A DNA stretch of 64,000 nt from Flavobacterium endophyticum (lineage in GTDB: Bacteria; Bacteroidota; Bacteroidia; Flavobacteriales; Flavobacteriaceae). Below, piece by piece: positions 1 through 63,020 of the stretch. Within the stretch, counting starts at the first letter, position 1, and each line of letters opens with the position of its first letter. The stretch lies in assembly GCF_003634455.1 (NCBI RefSeq), contig NZ_RBLC01000002.1, positions 1 through 64,000 on the forward strand, written 5' to 3'. Under the pieces are notes generated by a model. It saw nothing but the letters and a program-made list of their open reading frames with translations, ran no database searches and had not been told where the DNA came from. Both the position numbers and the translations under genes were made by a program.

Positions 1-1
1 C

Positions 2-3000
2 CTTTGCGGCAATACTGCCGTACATACCCAGACAGTGACCGTGGCTGATACGCAGGCTCCTGTATTTGCAGGAACATTGCCTGCTGCCAGCATAAATGCT
101 GCCTGCGGAAACATCCCGGCTGCGGCTACGCTTACTGCAACCGATGCCTGCGGAAGCGCGACTGTGACATTTGCCGAGACAAGGACAGACGGTGCCTGCG
201 CCGGAAGCTATACGCTTACAAGAAAATGGACGGCTACCGACCTATGCGGGAACACTGCCGTACACACACAAACAGTGACCGTGACAGATACGCAGGCTCC
301 GACATTCAATGGAACCCTTCCTTCAAACATAACGGCTTCATGTAATAATATCCCGGCTGCGGCTACGTTAACTGCAACCGATGCCTGCGGAACTGCAACG
401 GTGACATTCGCCGAGACAAGAACCGATGGTGCCTGCGCCGGAAGCTATACCCTTACAAGAAAATGGACGGCTACCGATCTTTGCGGCAATACTGCCGTAC
501 ATACCCAGACAGTGACCGTGACTGATACCCAGGCTCCTGTATTCGCAGGAACATTGCCATCAAACATTACGGCAGCTTGCGGAAACATCCCGGCTGCGGC
601 TACGCTTACTGCAACCGATGCCTGCGGAAGCGCGACTGTGACATTTGCGGAGACAAGGACAGACGGTGCCTGTGCCGGAAGCTACACGCTTACAAGAAAA
701 TGGACGGCTACCGACCTATGCGGGAACACTGCCGTACACACACAAACAGTGACCGTGACAGATACGCAGGCTCCGACATTCAATGGAACCCTTCCTTCAA
801 ACATAACGGCTTCATGTAATAATATCCCGGCTGCGGCTACGTTAACTGCAACCGATGCCTGCGGAACTGCAACGGTGACATTCGCTGAGACTAGGACCGA
901 TGGTGCCTGCGCCGGAAGCTACACCCTTACAAGAAAATGGACGGCTACCGACCTTTGCGGAAATACTGCGGTACATACCCAGACAGTGACCGTGACTGAT
1001 ACGCAGGCTCCGACATTCAATGGAACCCTTCCTTCAAACATAACGGCTTCATGTAATAATATCCCGGCTGCGGCTACGTTAACTGCAACTGATGCTTGCG
1101 GAAGTGCGACTGTAACTTTTGCTGAAACTAGAACCGATGGTGCCTGCGCCGGAAGCTATATCCTGACAAGAAAATGGACCGCTGCCGATCTTTGCGGCAA
1201 TACTGCAGAGCATACTCAGACAGTGACCGTGACCGATACCCAGGCTCCTGTATTTGTAGGGACACCTCCTGCTGATGTTGCTGTATCTTGCAGTAACATA
1301 CCTGCAGCGGCTACGCTTACTGCAACCGATGCCTGCGGAACTGCGACTGTAACATTCGCCGAGACAAGGACCGATGGTGCCTGCGCTGGAAGCTATACCC
1401 TTACTAGAAAATGGACGGCTGCCGACCTTTGCGGAAATACTGCGGAGCATACTCAGACAGTGACCGTGACCGATACCCAGGCTCCTGTATTTACAGGAAC
1501 ATTGCCTGCGGCTGAAGTGGCTGCGTCTTGCGACAATATCCCGGCTGCGGCTGTATTGACTGCAACCGATGCTTGCGGAAGTGCGACTGTAACTTTTGCT
1601 GAAACTAGAACCGATGGTGCCTGCGCCGGAAGCTATATCTTGACAAGAAAATGGACGGCTACCGACCTTTGCGGAAATACTGCGGAGCATACACAAACAG
1701 TGACCGTGACTGATACCCAGGCTCCTGTATTTGCAGGAACATTGCCTGCGGCTGAAGTGGCTGCGTCTTGCGACAATATCCCGGCTGCGGCTACGTTAAC
1801 TGCAACTGATGCTTGCGGGACTGCAACGGTGACATTCGCTGAGACCAGGACTGACGGTGCCTGCGCCGGAAGCTATACCCTTACTAGAAAATGGACGGCT
1901 GCCGACCTTTGCGGAAATACTGCGGAGCATACTCAGACAGTGACCGTGACCGATACCCTGGCTCCTGTATTTACAGGAACATTGCCTGCGGCTGAAGTGG
2001 CTGCGTCTTGCGACAATATCCCGGCTGCAGCTACGTTAACTGCAACTGATGCTTGCGGAAGTGCGACTGTAACTTTTGCCGAGACAAGAACCGATGGTGC
2101 ATGCGCCGGAAGCTATACGCTTACAAGAAAATGGACGGCTGCCGACCTTTGCGGAAATACTGCGGAGCATACGCAAACAGTCACCGTGACCGATACCCAG
2201 GCTCCTGTATTTGCAGGAACATTGCCTGCGGCTGAAGTGGCTGCGTCTTGCGACAATATCCCGGCTGCGGCTGTATTGACTGCGACTGATGCCTGCGGAA
2301 GCGCGACTGTGACTTTTGCCGAGACAAGGACCGATGGTGCCTGCGCTGGAAGCTATACCCTTACTAGAAAATGGACGGCTGCCGACCTTTGCGGAAATAC
2401 AGCCGAGCATACTCAGACAGTAACCGTAACCGATACCCAGGCTCCTGTATTTGCAGGAACACTGCCTGCGGCTGAAGTGGCTGCGTCTTGCGACAATATC
2501 CCGGCTCCGGCTGTATTGACTGCAACTGATGCTTGCGGAAGTGCGACTGTAACTTTTGCTGAAACTAGAACTGATGGTGCTTGCGCCGGAAGCTACACGC
2601 TTACAAGAAAATGGACGACTGCCGACCTTTGCGGCAATACTGCAGAGCATACTCAGACAGTGACCGTGACCGATACCCAGGCTCCTGTATTTGTAGGGAC
2701 ACCTCCTGCTGATGTTGCTGTATCTTGCAGTAACATACCTGCAGCGGCTACGCTTACTGCAACCGATGCCTGCGGAACTGCGACTGTAACATTCGCCGAG
2801 ACAAGGACCGATGGTGCCTGCGCTGGAAGCTATACCCTTACAAGAAAATGGACGGCTGCCGACCTTTGCGGAAATACTGCGGAGCATACTCAGACAGTGA
2901 CCGTGACCGATACCCAGGCTCCTGTATTTGCAGGAACATTGCCTGCGGCTGAAGTGGCTGCGTCTTGCGACAATATCCCGGCTGCGGCTGTATTGACTGC

Positions 3001-5152
3001 GACTGATGCTTGCGGAAGTGCGACTGTAACATTCGCCGAGACAAGGACCGATGGTGCCTGCGCTGGAAGCTATACCTTGACAAGAAAATGGACGGCTGCC
3101 GACCTTTGCGGAAATACAGCCGAGCATACTCAGACAGTAACCGTAACCGATACCCAGGCTCCTGTATTTGCAGGAACACTGCCTGCGGCTGAAGTGGCTG
3201 CGTCTTGCGACAATATCCCGGCTCCGGCTGTATTGACTGCAACCGATGCTTGCGGAAGTGCGACTGTAACTTTTGCTGAAACTAGAACTGATGGTGCTTG
3301 CGCCGGAAGCTACACGCTTACAAGAAAATGGACGACTGCCGACCTTTGCGGAAATACTGCGGAGCATACGCAAACAGTGACCGTGACTGATACCCAGGCT
3401 CCTGTATTTGCAGGAACATTGCCTGCGGCTGAAGTGGCTGCGTCTTGCGACAATATCCCGGCTCCGGCTGTATTGACTGCAACCGATGCTTGCGGAAGTG
3501 CGACTGTAACTTTTGCTGAAACTAGAACCGATGGTGCCTGCGCTGGAAGCTATATCCTGACAAGAAAATGGACCGCTGCCGATCTTTGCGGCAATACTGC
3601 AGAGCATACTCAGACAGTGACCGTGACCGATACCCAGGCTCCTGTATTTGTAGGGACACCTCCTGCTGATGTTGCTGTATCTTGCAGTAACATACCTGCA
3701 GCGGCTACGCTTACTGCAACCGATGCCTGCGGAACTGCGACTGTAACATTCGCCGAGACAAGGACCGATGGTGCCTGCGCTGGAAGCTATACCCTTACTA
3801 GAAAATGGACGGCTGCCGACCTTTGCGGAAATACAGCCGAGCATACTCAGACAGTAACCGTAACCGATACCCAGGCTCCTGTATTTGCAGGAACACTGCC
3901 TGCGGCTGAAGTGGCTGCGTCTTGCGACAATATCCCGGCTCCGGCTGTATTGACTGCAACTGATGCTTGCGGAAGTGCGACTGTAACTTTTGCTGAAACT
4001 AGAACTGATGGTGCTTGCGCCGGAAGCTACACGCTTACAAGAAAATGGACGACTGCCGACCTTTGCGGAAATACTGTAGAACATATCCAGACAATAACGG
4101 TAAGCGATACGCAAGCCCCTACATTTGTTGAGACTGTACCGGCAGACGTTACCGTAGCTTGTGGAGCAATTCCAACAGCAGTAACTCTAACGGCAACTGA
4201 CAACTGTAGCCTTGCAACAGTTACGATGACAGAAACTACAGCGAATGGAGCTTGTACTGGTGATTCAGTGATAACAAGAACTTGGATTGCTACTGACTTA
4301 TGTGGAAATACAACTTCAGCAACCCAAACCATCACAGTAGAAGATAATACTGCTCCATCATTAATTACTCCTTTTGAAGGAACGATAAATGTAGTTTGTA
4401 GTGCTATTCCAGATGCGCCAGCTTTACAATTCACAGACTCTTGTTCTTCAGTAGAAAATGTTATATTTGATGAACAGATTGAAAATCAGACAGCAACAGG
4501 TTATACTATCGTGAGAACTTGGTCTGCATCTGACAGCTGTGGCAATTCTAATACATTTACACAAACTGTAAATGTTACGATAACAAGCCCAACACAAACA
4601 ATTCCTAGCGAACTGTGTGTCGAGGATCTTTCAATTGATTTGTTCACATTGCTTGATGGTTCAGTAGAAACAACAGGTACATGGGTTGATACTAATAATT
4701 CAGGCGGATTGCAAGGAAGTACATTTGATCCTGCGCAAGTTGCACTTGGAGATTACATCTTGAGCTATGTTATCGCTAATGGCGATTGTCCTAGAACTAT
4801 TCAAGTCAACATGAATGTAAATGACGAATGTATCGTTTTAGCGCCTTGCGAAATCATCGTACACAATGCAATATCACCAAATGGAGATACTCTAAATGAG
4901 TTCTTTATGATTGAAGGTCTTGATTGTTACCCAAATAATACGGTAGAAATCTATAATCGTTGGGGTGTTTTAGTATTCGATGCCCAAGGATATGATAATA
5001 CAAATAAAGTATTCAGAGGAATATCAGAAGGTCGAGCAACAGTTAAAAAATCAGAAGAATTGCCTGATGGAACATACTACTACGTACTTAAATACGTAGA
5101 TGCTGATGGAAAATCTAGAGAAAAAGCAAGCTATCTATATATTAATAGATAA
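2..5152 (+). CDS. SprB-like giant repeat adhesin, 3' part (type IX secretion, gliding-motility C-terminal domain)
   Basis: The reading frame is open from the first full codon at base 2, so the start lies upstream of the window and this is only the C-terminal part of a very large cell-surface protein. It consists of 17 near-identical domains of 79 or 80 residues. Each begins around TQAPVF, ends around TVTVTD, and carries four cysteines (in SCDN, DACG, GACAG and DLCGN), so two disulfides are possible. Two diverged copies follow (about 4109-4570), then a linker and a C-terminal domain with ISPNGD, YNRWG and PDGTYYYVL. That is the gliding-motility-associated (CHU_C, type B) T9SS signal. The next gene is a PorP/SprF protein, as for F. 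johnsoniae sprB-sprF. Expected role: adhesin exported to the surface and moved by the gliding motor. Exact substrate unknown. The window edge hides the signal peptide. Confidence 0.9.
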   Translation, partial: LCGNTAVHTQTVTVADTQAPVFAGTLPAASINAACGNIPAAATLTATDACGSATVTFAETRTDGACAGSYTLTRKWTATDLCGNTAVHTQTVTVTDTQAPTFNGTLPSNITASCNNIPAAATLTATDACGTATVTFAETRTDGACAGSYTLTRKWTATDLCGNTAVHTQTVTVTDTQAPVFAGTLPSNITAACGNIPAAATLTATDACGSATVTFAETRTDGACAGSYTLTRKWTATDLCGNTAVHTQTVTVTDTQAPTFNGTLPSNITASCNNIPAAATLTATDACGTATVTFAETRTDGACAGSYTLTRKWTATDLCGNTAVHTQTVTVTDTQAPTFNGTLPSNITASCNNIPAAATLTATDACGSATVTFAETRTDGACAGSYILTRKWTAADLCGNTAEHTQTVTVTDTQAPVFVGTPPADVAVSCSNIPAAATLTATDACGTATVTFAETRTDGACAGSYTLTRKWTAADLCGNTAEHTQTVTVTDTQAPVFTGTLPAAEVAASCDNIPAAAVLTATDACGSATVTFAETRTDGACAGSYILTRKWTATDLCGNTAEHTQTVTVTDTQAPVFAGTLPAAEVAASCDNIPAAATLTATDACGTATVTFAETRTDGACAGSYTLTRKWTAADLCGNTAEHTQTVTVTDTLAPVFTGTLPAAEVAASCDNIPAAATLTATDACGSATVTFAETRTDGACAGSYTLTRKWTAADLCGNTAEHTQTVTVTDTQAPVFAGTLPAAEVAASCDNIPAAAVLTATDACGSATVTFAETRTDGACAGSYTLTRKWTAADLCGNTAEHTQTVTVTDTQAPVFAGTLPAAEVAASCDNIPAPAVLTATDACGSATVTFAETRTDGACAGSYTLTRKWTTADLCGNTAEHTQTVTVTDTQAPVFVGTPPADVAVSCSNIPAAATLTATDACGTATVTFAETRTDGACAGSYTLTRKWTAADLCGNTAEHTQTVTVTDTQAPVFAGTLPAAEVAASCDNIPAAAVLTATDACGSATVTFAETRTDGACAGSYTLTRKWTAADLCGNTAEHTQTVTVTDTQAPVFAGTLPAAEVAASCDNIPAPAVLTATDACGSATVTFAETRTDGACAGSYTLTRKWTTADLCGNTAEHTQTVTVTDTQAPVFAGTLPAAEVAASCDNIPAPAVLTATDACGSATVTFAETRTDGACAGSYILTRKWTAADLCGNTAEHTQTVTVTDTQAPVFVGTPPADVAVSCSNIPAAATLTATDACGTATVTFAETRTDGACAGSYTLTRKWTAADLCGNTAEHTQTVTVTDTQAPVFAGTLPAAEVAASCDNIPAPAVLTATDACGSATVTFAETRTDGACAGSYTLTRKWTTADLCGNTVEHIQTITVSDTQAPTFVETVPADVTVACGAIPTAVTLTATDNCSLATVTMTETTANGACTGDSVITRTWIATDLCGNTTSATQTITVEDNTAPSLITPFEGTINVVCSAIPDAPALQFTDSCSSVENVIFDEQIENQTATGYTIVRTWSASDSCGNSNTFTQTVNVTITSPTQTIPSELCVEDLSIDLFTLLDGSVETTGTWVDTNNSGGLQGSTFDPAQVALGDYILSYVIANGDCPRTIQVNMNVNDECIVLAPCEIIVHNAISPNGDTLNEFFMIEGLDCYPNNTVEIYNRWGVLVFDAQGYDNTNKVFRGISEGRATVKKSEELPDGTYYYVLKYVDADGKSREKASYLYINR
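50..4108 (+). repeat. 17 tandem in-frame adhesin repeats (237/240 bp)
   Basis: Seventeen units start at the codon for T in TQAP. Ten are 240 bp and seven are 237 bp, and the total of 4059 bp matches the distance from 50 to 4109 exactly. Length differences are confined to one loop (PAAEVAASCDN versus PADVAVSCSN or PSNITASCNN). The units are much richer in G+C than the unique 3' end of the same gene. Conserved codons make long shadow reading frames on both strands. Confidence 0.95.
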
Positions 5153-27650: not shown

Positions 27651-28112
27651 TGACAGCTTCTCCCAAGCTGAAACAAGCTGTCAACTCTGTTAGACACCTC
27701 AAAATGACCTCACTTTAGCCTGTCAACTCTGTTAGACACCTTAAAACGACCTCACTTTAGCCTGTCAACTCTGTTAGACACCTCAAAACGACCTCACTTT
27801 AACCTGTCAACTCTGTTAGACACCTCAAAATGACCTCACTTTAGCCTGTCAACTCTGTTAGACAGTCTCTCCCGAGCTGAAACAAGCCGTCAACTCTGTT
27901 AGACACCTCAAAACGACCTCACTTTAGCCTGTCAACTCTGTTAGACAGTCTCTCCCGAGCTGAAACAAGCCGTCAACTCTGTTAGACACCTCAAAACGAC
28001 CTCACTTTAGCCTGTCAACTCTGTTAGACAGTCTCTCCCGAGCTGAAACAAGCCGTCAACTCTGTTAGACACCTCAAAACGACCTCACTTTAGCCTGTCA
28101 ACTCTGTTAGAC
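27651..28112. repeat. Alternating 42/41-bp tandem repeat with eleven copies of a 16-bp core
   Basis: The core GTCAACTCTGTTAGAC begins at 27680, 27722, 27764, 27806, 27848, 27889, 27931, 27972, 28014, 28055 and 28097. Between cores lies one of two conserved fillers: a CCTCAAAACGACCTCACTTT type (42-bp period) or a CTCTCCCGAGCTGAAACAAG type (41-bp period). The first four units all use filler one; the fillers then alternate, giving three 83-bp composite units. The fillers are repeats themselves and there are no cas genes, so this is not a CRISPR. It carries no reading frame of note. Confidence 0.93.
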
Positions 28113-28165
28113 GACTCGCCATAAACGTATTTTAAGACCTCACCAACATGCCTTATACTTTTTAC

Positions 28166-28223
28166 AACTTTACAACTTGCAACTTTACAACTTGCAACTT
28201 TACGACTTGCAACTTTACGACTT
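28166..28223. repeat. 15-bp tandem repeat, about four copies
   Basis: AACTTTACAACTTGC is repeated at 28166, 28181, 28196 and 28211 (the last cut short), with an A to G change in copies three and four. It lies about 140 bases upstream of sdaA. Confidence 0.85.
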
Positions 28224-28331
28224 TATCAAACCAACCCTCTTTAAATCACCCAATTATATCAAATTTCTAAAATCATCTAGGAATAATGCACATTTAATAA
28301 ATTTACAACGTTTTCGCAATCGTAAAAAAAT

Positions 28332-37946: not shown

Positions 37947-39077
37947 TTGGAAAGTAAAAGAGAAGATAACGTACAGCATTTTTTAAACTTAATCCAAAAA
38001 TCAAGAAGAGGGAAGTTTAAAGTCTACATCGGCATGAGTGCCGGTGTAGGCAAAACTTTTCGGATGCTTCAAGAAGCCCATTCGCTATTAAAAAATGGTA
38101 TTGACGTTAAAATCGGCTACATAGAAACGCACAATCGTAAAGAAACCCACGAACTGCTTGAAGGACTCCCTCTTGTTCCAAGAAGAAAGTTATTCTACAA
38201 AGGAAAAGAGCTGGAGGAAATGGATGTACAGGCCATTATCAGCCTCCGTCCGGAAGTCGTAATTGTAGACGAACTCGCCCACACCAATATCGAAGGCAGC
38301 AAAAATGAAAAACGCTGGCAGGATGTTTTCGAGATACTGGAAGCTGGCATAAATGTAATCAGCGCCGTAAACATCCAGCACATCGAAAGCCTGAACGAGG
38401 AAATAAAATACATTACCGGAATTGAGGTAAAGGAACGCATTCCAGATAGCGTTTTGGCACAGGCCGATGAAGTCGTAAACATCGATTTGACAGCTGACGA
38501 GCTGATTACAAGGCTCAAAGAAGGAAAAATATACAAGACCGAAAAGATTGAAATGGCGCTGAAAAACTTTTTCAAAAGCGAGCACATTCTGCAATTGAGA
38601 GAATTAGCCTTGAAAGAAGTCGCCAGCCAAGTCGAACGAAAAGTAGAAATTGAAGTTCCGAAAAACAAAGGTTCCCGACATGAAAAATTTATGGCCTGTA
38701 TCAGCAGCAACGAGGAAACCGCTAAAAAAGTAATTCGAAAAACAGCCCGCTTGGCAAATTATTACAACAGCAGCAAATGGTATGTACTGTATGTACAGCT
38801 TCCCCGTGAAAGTGCCGATAAGATTCCTTTAGACAAACAGCGCCACCTCATTAACAATTTCAAATTGGCAACCGAATTAGGAGCCGAAGTCATCAAAATT
38901 GAACACACTAAAATTGCCAAAGCAATCATAGAACAAGCCGAAAACAAAGGCATTACGACAGTCTGCATCGGAAAACCCAGAATGAATCTGATGAAGATTA
39001 TTCTTTCCACAAATGCTTTCAAAGAATTATTAAATAAGCTATCTTCGAGTGAAATTGATTTGATTATTCTTAGTTGA
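37947..39077 (+). CDS. KdpD N-terminal sensor protein (KdpD + USP domains, no kinase)
   Basis: A 376-residue soluble protein from a TTG start. The KdpD domain (about 20-230) has a Walker A in YIGMSAGVGKTFRML and VVIVDELAHTN. A universal-stress-protein domain (about 245-375) ends in TVCIGKPRMNLMKIIL. It lacks the membrane and kinase regions of E. coli KdpD; the kinase is encoded separately at 39593. The stop codon lies inside a heptamer repeat flanking the next gene, so the C-terminal end may have been reset by an insertion. Confidence 0.9.
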   Translation: MESKREDNVQHFLNLIQKSRRGKFKVYIGMSAGVGKTFRMLQEAHSLLKNGIDVKIGYIETHNRKETHELLEGLPLVPRRKLFYKGKELEEMDVQAIISLRPEVVIVDELAHTNIEGSKNEKRWQDVFEILEAGINVISAVNIQHIESLNEEIKYITGIEVKERIPDSVLAQADEVVNIDLTADELITRLKEGKIYKTEKIEMALKNFFKSEHILQLRELALKEVASQVERKVEIEVPKNKGSRHEKFMACISSNEETAKKVIRKTARLANYYNSSKWYVLYVQLPRESADKIPLDKQRHLINNFKLATELGAEVIKIEHTKIAKAIIEQAENKGITTVCIGKPRMNLMKIILSTNAFKELLNKLSSSEIDLIILS

Positions 39078-39104
39078 GAATTGAAAGTTTTTAGTTGAAA
39101 GTTT
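39070..39104 (-). repeat. Heptanucleotide repeat, left flank of the four-helix cassette
   Basis: Five contiguous 7-mers on the minus strand (AAACTTT and CAACTAA types, one CAATTCT). They are in the opposite orientation to the block at 39490-39594. The KdpD-N stop codon lies within them. Confidence 0.8.
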
Positions 39105-39123
39105 AAGCCATAAAAAAGTAATT

Positions 39124-39489
39124 ATGAAGAATAGCATTATCAAAGAAAAATCATTTCTGTTTGCTGTGAGAATCGTAAAATTGTATCAGCATATTTCAGA
39201 AAACAAAAAGGAATTTATTTTATCAAAACAATTAGTCAGAAGCGGTACTTCAATTGGAGCAAACATCTGCGAAGCCTTGCAAGGCGCATCAAAAAAAGAT
39301 TTTAGCAACAAGATGAATATTTCGCTGAAAGAAGCACAAGAAACTGAATATTGGCTCCGTTTGTTACACGAAACCCATTATCTATCGGAAAAAGAATTTC
39401 AATCCCTTTACGAAGATAGTGTCGAACTGATCAAAATGCTTACCGCAATTGTCAAGACATCCAGAGTAAACCTAGACAAACCACACTAA
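39124..39489 (+). CDS. Four-helix-bundle protein (23S rRNA intervening-sequence / Avd-like)
   Basis: A 121-residue helical protein of the S23/Avd-like family: FLFAVRIVKLYQHI, LSKQLVRSGTSIGANICEA, KKDFSNKMNISLKEAQETEYWLRLL, SLYEDSVELIKMLTAIVK. The family includes proteins encoded in rRNA intervening sequences and the Avd accessory protein of diversity-generating retroelements; no reverse transcriptase is present here. The gene stands between the two halves of the Kdp sensor and is bracketed by inverted heptamer repeats, so it looks like a cassette inserted into the operon. Confidence 0.88.
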   Translation: MKNSIIKEKSFLFAVRIVKLYQHISENKKEFILSKQLVRSGTSIGANICEALQGASKKDFSNKMNISLKEAQETEYWLRLLHETHYLSEKEFQSLYEDSVELIKMLTAIVKTSRVNLDKPH

Positions 39490-39594
39490 AAACTAGAAAC
39501 TATCCATTCTCAACTATCAACTATAAACTAGAAACTATCCATTCTCAACTATAAACTATCAACTATAAATTATCACCTATAAACTATCAACTGT
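39490..39594 (+). repeat. Heptanucleotide repeat, right flank of the four-helix cassette
   Basis: Fifteen contiguous 7-mers, mainly AAACTAT and CAACTAT with CCATTCT and AAACTAG variants. It begins right at the cassette gene's stop codon and runs into the GTG start codon of the histidine kinase gene. ATTCTCAACT occurs here at 39506 and 39541, and its complement AGTTGAGAAT at 39072. Confidence 0.92.
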
Positions 39595-41323
39595 GCGAAT
39601 TAAAACAAAATTAAGGCTCGGAGTCGGATTACTTTTCTTTATGATTGTCTTGCTTGTGGCTCTGGCCGTAAGACAAGTACACGTTATTGCAAACGACACC
39701 GAAAATATTCTTGTTGCCAATTACAATTCCCTAGACTATTCCCGCAATATGATGAAAGAGCTTGATAAGATCGAAGGTGAAAAACAATCCTTCGAAAATT
39801 TTAATCGCTTTTTGAAATTGCAGAACCAGAATGTCACAGAAATTGGAGAAAAAGAGCTCACCCAAAGCTTGTCTGAAGATGCAAAAGCATTCCAATTACA
39901 GCCCGAAAACAAATCCATTGCCAGTCAGATCCGAAAAGACCTCAACGACATCATGAAAATCAACATGGATGCGATACAGAGAAAAAGCATCGTGGCAAAA
40001 AAAACAGCCGACAGTGCTATCTTTTGGATTTCTATTACAGGCCTCACCTGCTTTATGATTGCTTTTACTTTGCTCATCAACCTGCCTAGCGATATTGCAA
40101 ATCCTATAAAAGACCTGACGGAAAGCATCCGACAAATTGCTGCAAAAAACTATTCCCAACGCGTCAATTTTGAAACACACGATGAATTTGGCAATCTTGC
40201 GAAGTCCTTCAATACAATGGCGGGAAAACTCCAGGAATACAGCGACAGCAATTTGGCCAAGCTGATGATGGAGAAAAAAAGAATCGAAACGCTCATCAAC
40301 AATATGCAAGATCCAGCCATTGGCCTTGATGACAAAAACAACATCCTTTTTGCCAATGAAGAAGCTTTAAAAATCTCGGGGTTGAAAGCGAGCGATATTA
40401 TTGGAAAGTCAGCCAGCGAAGTAGCGCTTTCTAATGACCTTGTCCGTTCGCTGCTACAGCATCTTATTAGTGAAAATACTAAAAAACCACAAGAAACCCT
40501 GAAAATTTATGCCGATAACAAGGAAAGCTATTTCGAAAAACAAGTCGTGCCTATTCTTGTCTTGCCAACAGGCGAAGAAGAAAAAAAACTAATCGGTTCT
40601 TTTATAATCTTGCGTAATGTGACAGCTTATAAAGAACTGGATTTTGCGAAGACGAACTTTATCGCTATGGTGTCGCACGAATTCAAGACGCCAATTGCTT
40701 CCATGAAAATGAGCCTGCAACTGCTTGAAAACGACAGCATCGGAAATTTAAATGAGGAGCAAAAACAATTGGTTTCCAGTATAAAAGACGATGCTAAAAG
40801 ATTGCTGAGGACCACTGGAGAATTATTAAATATTACGCAGGTAGAGACAGGAAAAACACAGCTAAAGATTGAAAACTGTGATCCAAAAACAATTATTGCC
40901 GATGCCGTTGAAGCTACAAAAATATTGACCGAACAAAAAAACATCAGCTTGCATCTGAATCTTCCCGAATTTTTGCCCGAAATAGCTGGCGATCAAGAAA
41001 AAACAACCTGGGTCGTTTCCAATCTGATTTCTAATGCGATCCGTTATTCGTATGAAAACTCAACGGTAGTCATTACCGCAGAAGCTAAAGGAAGTTTTCT
41101 TGAAATAAGCGTTAAAGACAACGGAATCGGGATTTCCCCACAATATAAAAACAAAATCTTTGATAAGTATTTCAGAGTTCCCGGAGCCGAAAAAGAAGGA
41201 ACAGGACTCGGCCTTGCCATCAGCAAAGAATTTATTGAAGCACAAGGAGGAACGATTTCTGTAGAAAGCAATCTAGGATTCGGAAGCGAATTCACTATTA
41301 AATTAAAAACCAGCATTAGCTGA
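39593..41323 (+). CDS. Membrane histidine kinase with HAMP and PAS domains (Kdp sensor kinase)
   Basis: A 576-residue sensor kinase. TM1 is at about 9-26, a periplasmic helical region at 27-145, TM2 at about 148-168, HAMP at about 170-225 and PAS at about 235-345. HisKA has the phosphorylated histidine in FIAMVSHEFKTPIASM (about 363), and HATPase has NLISNAIRYSYEN, VKDNGIGISP and GTGLGLAIS. It lacks the four-helix membrane domain of E. coli KdpD. From its position it likely phosphorylates the NtrC-type regulator and works with the separate KdpD-N protein. The GTG start lies within the heptamer repeat; an upstream start is not available in that repeat. Confidence 0.88.
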   Translation: MRIKTKLRLGVGLLFFMIVLLVALAVRQVHVIANDTENILVANYNSLDYSRNMMKELDKIEGEKQSFENFNRFLKLQNQNVTEIGEKELTQSLSEDAKAFQLQPENKSIASQIRKDLNDIMKINMDAIQRKSIVAKKTADSAIFWISITGLTCFMIAFTLLINLPSDIANPIKDLTESIRQIAAKNYSQRVNFETHDEFGNLAKSFNTMAGKLQEYSDSNLAKLMMEKKRIETLINNMQDPAIGLDDKNNILFANEEALKISGLKASDIIGKSASEVALSNDLVRSLLQHLISENTKKPQETLKIYADNKESYFEKQVVPILVLPTGEEEKKLIGSFIILRNVTAYKELDFAKTNFIAMVSHEFKTPIASMKMSLQLLENDSIGNLNEEQKQLVSSIKDDAKRLLRTTGELLNITQVETGKTQLKIENCDPKTIIADAVEATKILTEQKNISLHLNLPEFLPEIAGDQEKTTWVVSNLISNAIRYSYENSTVVITAEAKGSFLEISVKDNGIGISPQYKNKIFDKYFRVPGAEKEGTGLGLAISKEFIEAQGGTISVESNLGFGSEFTIKLKTSIS

Positions 41324-61730: not shown

Positions 61731-63020
61731 TTATGTTTCTAATACTTCCCGCATGGCTTTGGCTTTCAGCAAACATTCTTCGTATTCTTTTTCAGGAACG
61801 GATAGCGAGGTTATAGCGCTACCTACAGAAAACGAGACATAATTAATTTCTTCATTGTATAAAATACTTCGGATGACCACATTAAAATCGAAATTATTGT
61901 CTGGCGTAAAATAACCTACCGCACCGCTGTAAAGGCCGCGTTTTGTTTCTTCCAACTCTTCAATAATCTTCATAGCAGAAATTTTCGGCGCTCCAGTCAT
62001 GCTTCCCATCGGAAAAGTGGTCTTGATAATTTCTATAGGAGATTTATCGCTCTCTACAGTCGAAACAACCGTTGAAATCAAATGATGTACTTGCTTGAAA
62101 GTATAGGCCCCACACAACTCTTCGACCTCAACAGAGCCTTTTGAGGCGGTTCGCGACAAATCATTTCGCACAAGATCAACAATCATGATGTTTTCAGAAC
62201 GCTCTTTTTCGTTAGCCAACAATTCTTGCTTTATGCTTTCATCTTCTTGAACGTCTGCGTGCCTTTTTGCAGTTCCTTTGATAGGCTGGGAAATAATCTT
62301 GTCGTTTTCTTTCCGCAAATATCTTTCTGGTGATGCAGACAAAAGAAATTGCTTGTTATTCTTAAAAAATACAGCAAACGGCGGCTCTGAAATTGCATTC
62401 AGGCGCGTGAAGGTTTCGATTGGGTTTAAGGATACATTTTCAGCAAAAAATTCTATGCAGAAATTCGCTTCGTAAATATCACCTCTGTGGATGTGTTCCA
62501 ACATGGTTGAAACTTTTTCAAGATAGCTTTCTTTGGAAATTCGCTGCTGGATTTTGATATCTGATTTTTGACTGATTTCTGATTTCTGATTTCTGATATC
62601 TTCCAAATCTTCCTCTACCTCATCATCACACATATTCAAATATTGGATTTCAAGCTGATCCTCTTTTAGAAGAAAAAGCTTTTTGGGCTGGAAAAAAAAT
62701 ACATCCGGAAAATGCAGTCCGTCATAATTGCTTGATTTTAGTTCCTCTGTATCGTTTTTCAAATCGTAAGAAAGATAGCCAAAAAGCCAGTCTTTTGTAA
62801 TCTGCTGATATTGCTTCAGATCTTCGAAGGCATTATGTTCGTCGGTTTTGACAGACGTAAAAGCATCGACGGCCAGAACAGCATCGAACAAGCTATATTT
62901 TTGATCGTAATTATTGCTATCTAGAAAAATGGCTTCACGAAATTGCTGCGACCAGAGCAAGAGCTGTATTTTAAATTCGGATGGATTTTCTAGCGTTATT
63001 TTTATCGATGTTCTCAAGAG
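61731..63020 (-). CDS. pabB: Aminodeoxychorismate synthase component I (PabB-like chorismate-binding enzyme)
   Basis: About 429 residues from a TTG start that gives RTSIKITLENPSEF; another TTG six codons upstream (63038) is equally possible and there is no ATG. The C-terminal chorismate-binding domain has RGDIYEANFCIEF, SASPERYL, PIKGTAKRH (the PIKGT lysine marks PabB rather than TrpE, which has PIAGT), IMIVDLVRNDLSR, FPMGSMTGAPKISAMKII and RGLYSGAVGYF. It makes 4-amino-4-deoxychorismate for folate with a PabA partner, which is not in the window. First gene of the pabB-tilS-dsbD group. Confidence 0.9.
   Translation of the reverse strand, partial: LLRTSIKITLENPSEFKIQLLLWSQQFREAIFLDSNNYDQKYSLFDAVLAVDAFTSVKTDEHNAFEDLKQYQQITKDWLFGYLSYDLKNDTEELKSSNYDGLHFPDVFFFQPKKLFLLKEDQLEIQYLNMCDDEVEEDLEDIRNQKSEISQKSDIKIQQRISKESYLEKVSTMLEHIHRGDIYEANFCIEFFAENVSLNPIETFTRLNAISEPPFAVFFKNNKQFLLSASPERYLRKENDKIISQPIKGTAKRHADVQEDESIKQELLANEKERSENIMIVDLVRNDLSRTASKGSVEVEELCGAYTFKQVHHLISTVVSTVESDKSPIEIIKTTFPMGSMTGAPKISAMKIIEELEETKRGLYSGAVGYFTPDNNFDFNVVIRSILYNEEINYVSFSVGSAITSLSVPEKEYEECLLKAKAMREVLET

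Follow-up and report, generated by a model that had tools for sequence, protein, structure and literature searches.

An S23 gene between inverted heptamer arrays at a Flavobacterium kdp junction probably belongs to a widespread class of small mobile elements

The heptanucleotide tandem repeats of cyanobacteria are known as STRRs. TAACTGA heptanucleotide repeats lie at gene junctions, occur sporadically in phyla and are missing at the same junction in relatives, as described in the accessible part of PMC4679880; neither "S23" nor "intervening sequence" was found in the main text of that paper. A second described system is formed by the intervening sequences (IVS) of 23S rRNA, for example in Coxiella and Leptospira, in which, so far as the available portion of the source tells, terminal inverted repeats form a stem whose loop holds an S23 open reading frame (ORF), as in the unit analysed here. 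A mobile-element origin, with the ORF needed for mobility, has been proposed for the S23-coding rRNA IVS in the part of PMC4990558 that could be consulted.

We analysed a window of 64,000 nucleotides (G000:C2:1-64000) from the 3.75-Mb genome of Flavobacterium endophyticum, which is assembled in 11 contigs. A unit of 523 bp (39070-39592) lies there between two sensor genes, with the following features:

37947-39077, plus strand: KdpD-N, a non-kinase potassium sensor, upstream neighbour of S23 (PF02702, 4e-93; NF038185 below cut-off)
39070-39107, plus strand: left heptamer array, about 5 TTAGTTG-like units
39072-39081, plus strand: AGTTGAGAAT, left-array copy of the inverted core common to both arrays
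39124-39489, plus strand: S23 (23S_rRNA_IVP) four-helix-bundle protein, 121 aa (PF05635, 6.7e-30; TIGR02436, 2.9e-33)
39490-39592, plus strand: right heptamer array, about 15 AACTATC-like units, inverted relative to the left array (TRF score 146)
39506-39515 (copy 1) and 39541-39550 (copy 2), plus strand: ATTCTCAACT, the inverted core in the right array
39593-41323, plus strand: HAMP/PAS histidine kinase, downstream neighbour of S23

An earlier note on this DNA had described about five and about fifteen heptamers in opposite orientation, sharing a 10-bp inverted sequence and flanking a complete S23/Avd-like gene, and each of these elements was recovered, including an Avd-like fold match for the intact gene. 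Its statement that the KdpD-N stop and the kinase GTG both lie inside the repeats held for the former only. The left array, whose units run TTAGTTG, AGAATTG, AAAGTTT, TTAGTTG and AAAGTTT, covers the last Ser codon and the TGA stop (39075-39077) of KdpD-N; the GTG start (39593), because it directly follows the last right-array unit without a gap, lies at the edge of the array. Similarly, the cassette does separate a sensor gene pair, as had been proposed, but the alternative that it splits a gene was rejected: relatives also carry KdpD-N and the kinase as two separate genes, and thus none was split. An inverted-repeat search delimited arms of 44 nt with 80% complementarity. The arm alignment score was 29, a value reached by none of 90 mismatched pairs (maximum 21), and the best-period z of the flanks was 22. 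Folded as RNA, the unit was mildly stabler than its shuffles (z -1.5; 5 of 100 shuffles did as well). No ORF of at least 60 aa other than S23 lies wholly between the arrays, and the unit has no transposase gene of its own. Elsewhere in the window, a further short-repeat array, CAACTTTACAACTTG, with a period of 15 or 7-8, occupies 28161-28225 and adjoins a 42-bp repeat array (27678-28112); a GATTTCT-type heptamer array without S23 is found at 62550-62601; and about 17 repeats of 240 bp (1-4076), which extend past the window start, probably belong to a repetitive surface protein.

In profile searches, the window S23 matched only families of the PF05635/TIGR02436 type, and we know of no catalytic motif or activity for S23. 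The protein was modelled as four helices (AlphaFold AF2, pLDDT 90.8), and its top Foldseek matches were 2RLD (55% identity) and 2GSC, both crystals containing five chains of one sequence each. The next matches were Avd (4DWL) and a DGR RNP (8UB7), with TM of about 0.76-0.85. Aligned with 4DWL_D, the window S23 gave an E of 0.03 and a TM of 0.76/0.85 (0.85 by target) at 13% identity in the structural alignment, and so shows an Avd-type four-helix fold; 4DWL was not found among its sequence-search matches. Residues invariant in 15 diverse S23 members include Q36, R39, S43, N47, E50 and E73 (window numbering).

KdpD-N was found in 50 of the 121 genus genomes, and 30 of these junctions were read. 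S23 was present at two of them (the window and G111), a gap of 26-27 bp at two and a gap of 75-379 bp without S23 at 18. At the remaining eight, the two genes abut (-1 to 3 bp), so that the empty sites for which a search had been suggested do occur in relatives. The G111 locus shares 94% identity with the window in KdpD-N and 86% in S23; after it, the closest genus S23 relatives are at most 64% identical among the matches listed. G009 (KdpD-N 92%), the closest relative that lacks S23 at kdp, offers no clean empty site, as a different heptamer palindrome lies there, and AGTTGAGAA is common to G009 and the window at the left edge. In the window, G111 and G009, KdpD-N ends in a Ser-stop AGTTGA, and in most of the other genomes its Ser codon is of the TC type; judged by eye, this suggests the array as the source of the final codon and stop of KdpD-N. 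Many of the 75-379-bp gaps hold palindromes of other short repeats, in several words, again by eye, as if the kdp junction (L057-L084) were a recurrent landing place for short-repeat palindromes.

S23 (PF05635) is present in 195 of the 199 genus genomes, with 1-17 copies per genome, and in 232 of the 296 genomes of a Bacteroidota phylum sample. We collected 175 Bacteroidota S23 loci, mostly best-scoring hits, which are not independent and form 69 neighbour clusters. Before counting, L138/L139 were re-oriented and L192/L193/L199-L202 were excluded as fragments or overlapping windows, yet the mis-parsed L096 and the pair L123/L189, which are one place, were all kept in the arm and period counts. 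Own arms paired above the 95% limit set by mismatched arms at 118 of the 175 loci (73/89 in the genus, 45/86 in other Bacteroidota), compared with 1/51 control window genes, and the mean arm score was 19.9 versus 10.8 for mismatched arms; the other 57 loci fell below the limit in this test. The best period at z>4 was 7 at 80 loci, 14 at 25, 8 at 28 and another value at 6. Periods of that strength appeared in 4/175 shuffled flanks and in 28/171 stretches lying 600-750 bp from S23. When the clusters were collapsed, once to the best locus and once to random representatives, the latter gave averages of 46.9 clusters passing the arm limit, 47.1 with period 7/14, 6.2 with period 8 and 11.5 weak ones. 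Left arms of S23 were G-rich (85/98) and right arms C-rich (75/87). At a Riemerella locus (L349), S23 with repeat-like flanks lies between an iron-sulfur assembly gene and sufB.

When named genomes were scanned with a single S23 protein (L145), 80 loci were obtained, spread over 18 named phyla, with 2 unassigned. A strong period of 7/14 was detected in 72/79 of the loci in other phyla, and matched arms exceeded the 95% limit in 29/79 (own mean 20.6 versus 13.0). The matched-arm test is weaker here because many loci share AGTGG/CCACT, so that mismatched arms pair too. Taking the best locus per neighbour cluster and leaving out loci inside host genes, AGTGG/CCACT was found on both sides in 27/46 clusters (30/56 loci), in ten named phyla, and in 0/49 controls 600-750 bp away.

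Four sites on cyanobacterial plasmids exist in filled and empty S23 forms with flank identity of 85-99%:

Site 1: filled in Calothrix (L343/L344), empty in L351-L353; 11 host bp lost
Site 2: filled in Nostoc (L345/L346), empty in L354-L357 and L359; a TTCTA duplication (about 5 bp) is possible
Site 3: filled in Nostoc (L359), empty in L345 and L354-L357; 503 bp gained, ATG duplicated
Site 4: ribonucleotide reductase genes, filled in L348, empty in L358; 13 host bp lost

Where the filled forms carry array plus S23, the empty ones lack the array as well. Site 3 is the cleanest pair, and its 3-bp ATG duplication holds against 3/5 empty sites. The earlier note's proposed search for target-site duplications thus met with a mixed outcome, a duplication being clear at site 3 only, possible at site 2 and absent at sites 1 and 4. 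One operon contains both site 2 and site 3, as neighbouring junctions, and the S23 units that hit them differ in word (GTCAGGA and GGGAAAA). Furthermore, a unit of about 418 bp resembling the one at site 2 (79-82% identity) occurs at unrelated loci in Aulosira (L361) and in Trichormus/Scytonema (L362/L363), three unrelated loci in all, with homology stopping at the unit ends. In the RNA fold of the L361 unit, a 33-bp stem without interruptions encloses the gene (z -5.2; 0/100 shuffles). A relic with an internally deleted S23 unit (L364, 601-733) is seen at the site where L362/L363 hold a full one, and on an Aulosira plasmid inverted AATTCAA heptamers flank an ORF on the other strand (L360, 2230-2735).

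S23 units were also found inside a protein gene. At 29 of 255 loci, after removal of one artefact locus, a second ORF runs uninterrupted through S23 and for 60 nt or more past it, always at one frame offset; in L274 it starts only 76 nt before S23, and as L145 and L263 are identical (100%), the distinct loci number at most 28. The L263 host ORF could be aligned with the solved BrxX/PglX structure 8c45 (residues 272-357 on 211-291 and 507-985 on 303-791), with about 138 extra residues precisely at the S23 position, and 10/10 further host ORFs tested matched PglX (PADLOC). By profile position, S23 lies early, before the DPACGSGH motif, in L263, L264, L272 and L285, and late, near the C terminus, in L265, L277 and L296. 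In addition, pglX ORFs (L263, L269, L296, L315 and others) contain S23-less heptamer arrays at several places; these are read in frame and encode SDQWSV/TDHWPL-like peptides (SGQWSVA or TDHWPLFTGH in L263). The unit is thus tolerated inside pglX and is double-coding there. The spread of pglX itself, a BREX gene, can account for some of the phyla in which these loci occur.

On these data, the unit at 39070-39592 probably belongs to a widespread class of small mobile elements that carry S23 in the loop and inverted arrays of 7/8-nt repeats as arms. Judged from genome comparison alone, the S23 gene and its arms are shown to co-occur, to vary in word between elements, to change unit number fast and to enter stop/start junctions, or pglX in frame, as a single block; they are found in many phyla. 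No movement was observed; what supports it is comparative, namely the filled and empty plasmid sites, the 418-bp unit at three loci and the in-frame pglX insertions. The earlier description of the window unit as a minimal mobile cassette that leaves both neighbours translatable is likewise borne out by the empty kdp sites, the plasmid pairs and the repeated unit.

How such a unit might move is a matter of inference. The arms would pair in RNA or single-stranded DNA, and an S23 oligomer, of which the five copies in both solved crystals may be indicative, would bind the arm hairpin. The bound hairpin could then be brought to a host polymerase or nuclease and copied into a new site, with the arrays presumably lengthening and shortening by slippage. 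Neighbouring genes would stay expressed because insertion spares the stop and start codons, and the stem may be cut from the mRNA as in rRNA. Non-autonomous copies moved in trans, or decayed relics, would explain the arrays that lack S23. That S23 drives movement through hairpin binding is thus an inference.

Of the competing explanations, the one that survives best holds that S23 is a passenger landing in the loops of pre-existing heptamer palindromes, the arrays being an independent element or a slippage product. We regard this as unlikely, although it draws support from the window's own genome, where the AACTATC-type word recurs at about 19 further places, judged from the surrounding 4-5 kb stretches, none of them with a PF05635 match. 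Most arrays with the window's own word lack S23, and among the matches listed six facing pairs without it all have TAGTTGA first and TCAACTA second. The S23-less palindrome at the G009 kdp junction and the solo arrays in the same pglX ORFs fit as well. Moreover, S23 loci within a single genome carry different words. The profile search gave four PF05635 matches in the window's genome. One further copy (L003) has arms that pair with a score of 29, reached by 0/90 mismatched pairs; a degraded copy (L004/L054) lies between GATTTAG-type arrays in inverted orientation; and a copy with gmk-/nadD-type neighbours (L001) has weak arms (score 11, reached by 48/90). The three other copies carry different words, contrary to what would be expected had the same heptamers accompanied every copy. 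Many different words were likewise seen within each of two S23-rich genomes, and L194/L196 of one genome, at 77% DNA identity, have different words by eye. Together with the copies in the window's genome, this pair indicates that arms are not always kept with the gene. A strict tie of repeat word to S23 clade was rejected, as it holds above 55% S23 identity and is lost below. The passenger explanation, however, does not account for the plasmid sites, empty of any array in one form and filled with array and S23 in the other, nor for the same S23 with the same word at three unrelated loci. Arm similarity also follows S23 identity at different genus loci (r 0.47; 0/1000 permutations), a value that unrecognised orthologous loci may inflate, and across Bacteroidota the arms of closely related S23 at different loci are more alike. 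Period agreement with the nearest S23 elsewhere was 117/125 over all Bacteroidota and 48/72 in the genus, the latter near chance for a 52:20 mix.

A retroelement, in which an Avd-like S23 RNP would use a reverse transcriptase supplied in trans, seems to us rather more doubtful still than the passenger. The Avd fold match (4DWL, TM 0.85 by target), the fixed sense orientation, the hairpin ends and the transcription of the unit with its operon are in keeping with it. Nevertheless, RVT_1 occurs in 90/199 genus genomes, against 195/199 for PF05635, and had no match at E 0.001 in the window's genome, which rules against a reverse transcriptase there, although non-RVT_1 or lost enzymes are not excluded.

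We give little credence to S23 as a vertically inherited operon gene whose hairpins are transcript-processing or attenuation signals without mobility. Both neighbours are in the sense of S23 at 141 of 173 Bacteroidota loci (both antisense at 13, mixed at 19) and at 40/51 outside the phylum, and some loci are widely conserved, for example the gmk-nadD type (n=24), with a best period of 8 in 23; a candidate unit of 9 nt there was rejected, the measured period being 8. In twelve gmk-nadD-type loci the arms co-vary, own arms scoring 22.9 versus 20.0 for species-swapped ones (permutation p 0.00035; relatedness not removed). Precise gains and empty sites, which already disfavour this explanation through the filled/empty pairs, stand against it, as do one unit at three unrelated loci and the many loci, copies and phyla in which S23 is found. 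An element of the REP/RAYT or MITE kind, moved in trans by a Y1 or another transposase, is given as little weight: it would fit the palindromic ends and the many copies without S23, but the window's genome has 0 matches to Y1_Tnp (PF01797) at E 0.001, which rules against a RAYT there and leaves other transposase families uncovered.

The earlier note had reported neither transposase nor reverse transcriptase in the unit, and this agrees with S23 as the sole inside ORF and with a genome lacking RVT_1 and Y1, within the families covered. The absence of both makes a DGR-like or RAYT-like helper less likely here but leaves other enzymes possible. If S23 itself proves to drive movement, small mobile elements of this class would be a new kind. 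It is possible, though we hold it only tentatively, that S23 elements are bacterium-wide and have a transposition route of their own, in which a single four-helix protein of no enzymatic appearance and a repeat hairpin suffice while host enzymes do the chemistry, and of which much heptamer content, the rRNA IVS and the PglX inserts are products. This would provide PF05635, a common family of small proteins without a function, with a role and a place in mobility, would connect two old puzzles, S23 intervening sequences and heptanucleotide repeats, and would yield a model element of about 0.4 kb open to direct movement tests. On cyanobacterial plasmids, S23 is found between cas6 and cas4 (type I-D; L347) and between cmr2 and cmr3 (type III-B; L350), and the portion of a large CRISPR survey available to us names "23S rRNA IVP" in a figure legend (PMC10910872). 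Caution is therefore needed in taking S23 for a defence gene by association, since such copies may be insertions and not defence parts.

In the open-licence PMC literature, including the accessible parts of PMC5524665 and PMC6749651 and not covering subscription papers, no paper was found in which S23 genes are connected with heptamer arrays or pglX. Within that open-licence literature, itself only partly accessible, the link between S23 and heptamer arrays appears to be new, the rRNA IVS and heptanucleotide repeats each being already known.

Compared with described systems, S23 units share with insertion sequences, MITEs and REPs their inverted ends, dispersed copies and gene-less copies, but differ in having no recognised transposase and an end-array word that varies by copy. 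Avd, the DGR accessory protein (4DWL, 8UB7), has the same four-helix fold, whereas sequence identity is low and the window's genome lacks the RVT_1 reverse transcriptase. Heptanucleotide STRR/LSSR repeats resemble the window unit in their tandem 7-nt units at gene junctions; the TAACTGA repeats differ in being direct, and are treated as binding sites or slippage products in the accessible part of PMC4679880. The rRNA IVS are of similar size, at 428 nt in the available portion of PMC4990558, compared with about 418 nt for L345/L361 and 523 bp for the window unit, and an IVS-like stem fold is clear in L361 and weak in the window unit. Unlike the rRNA IVS, the S23 units studied sit between protein genes or inside pglX, and that of the window, between kdpD-N and the kinase, lacks the place in a 23S rRNA helix that is a defining IVS feature. 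Arms made of arrays of 7/8-nt repeats may be a further difference. The window unit is best read as a mobile element that has stems built from heptamer arrays and is related to the S23-coding intervening sequences of 23S rRNA.
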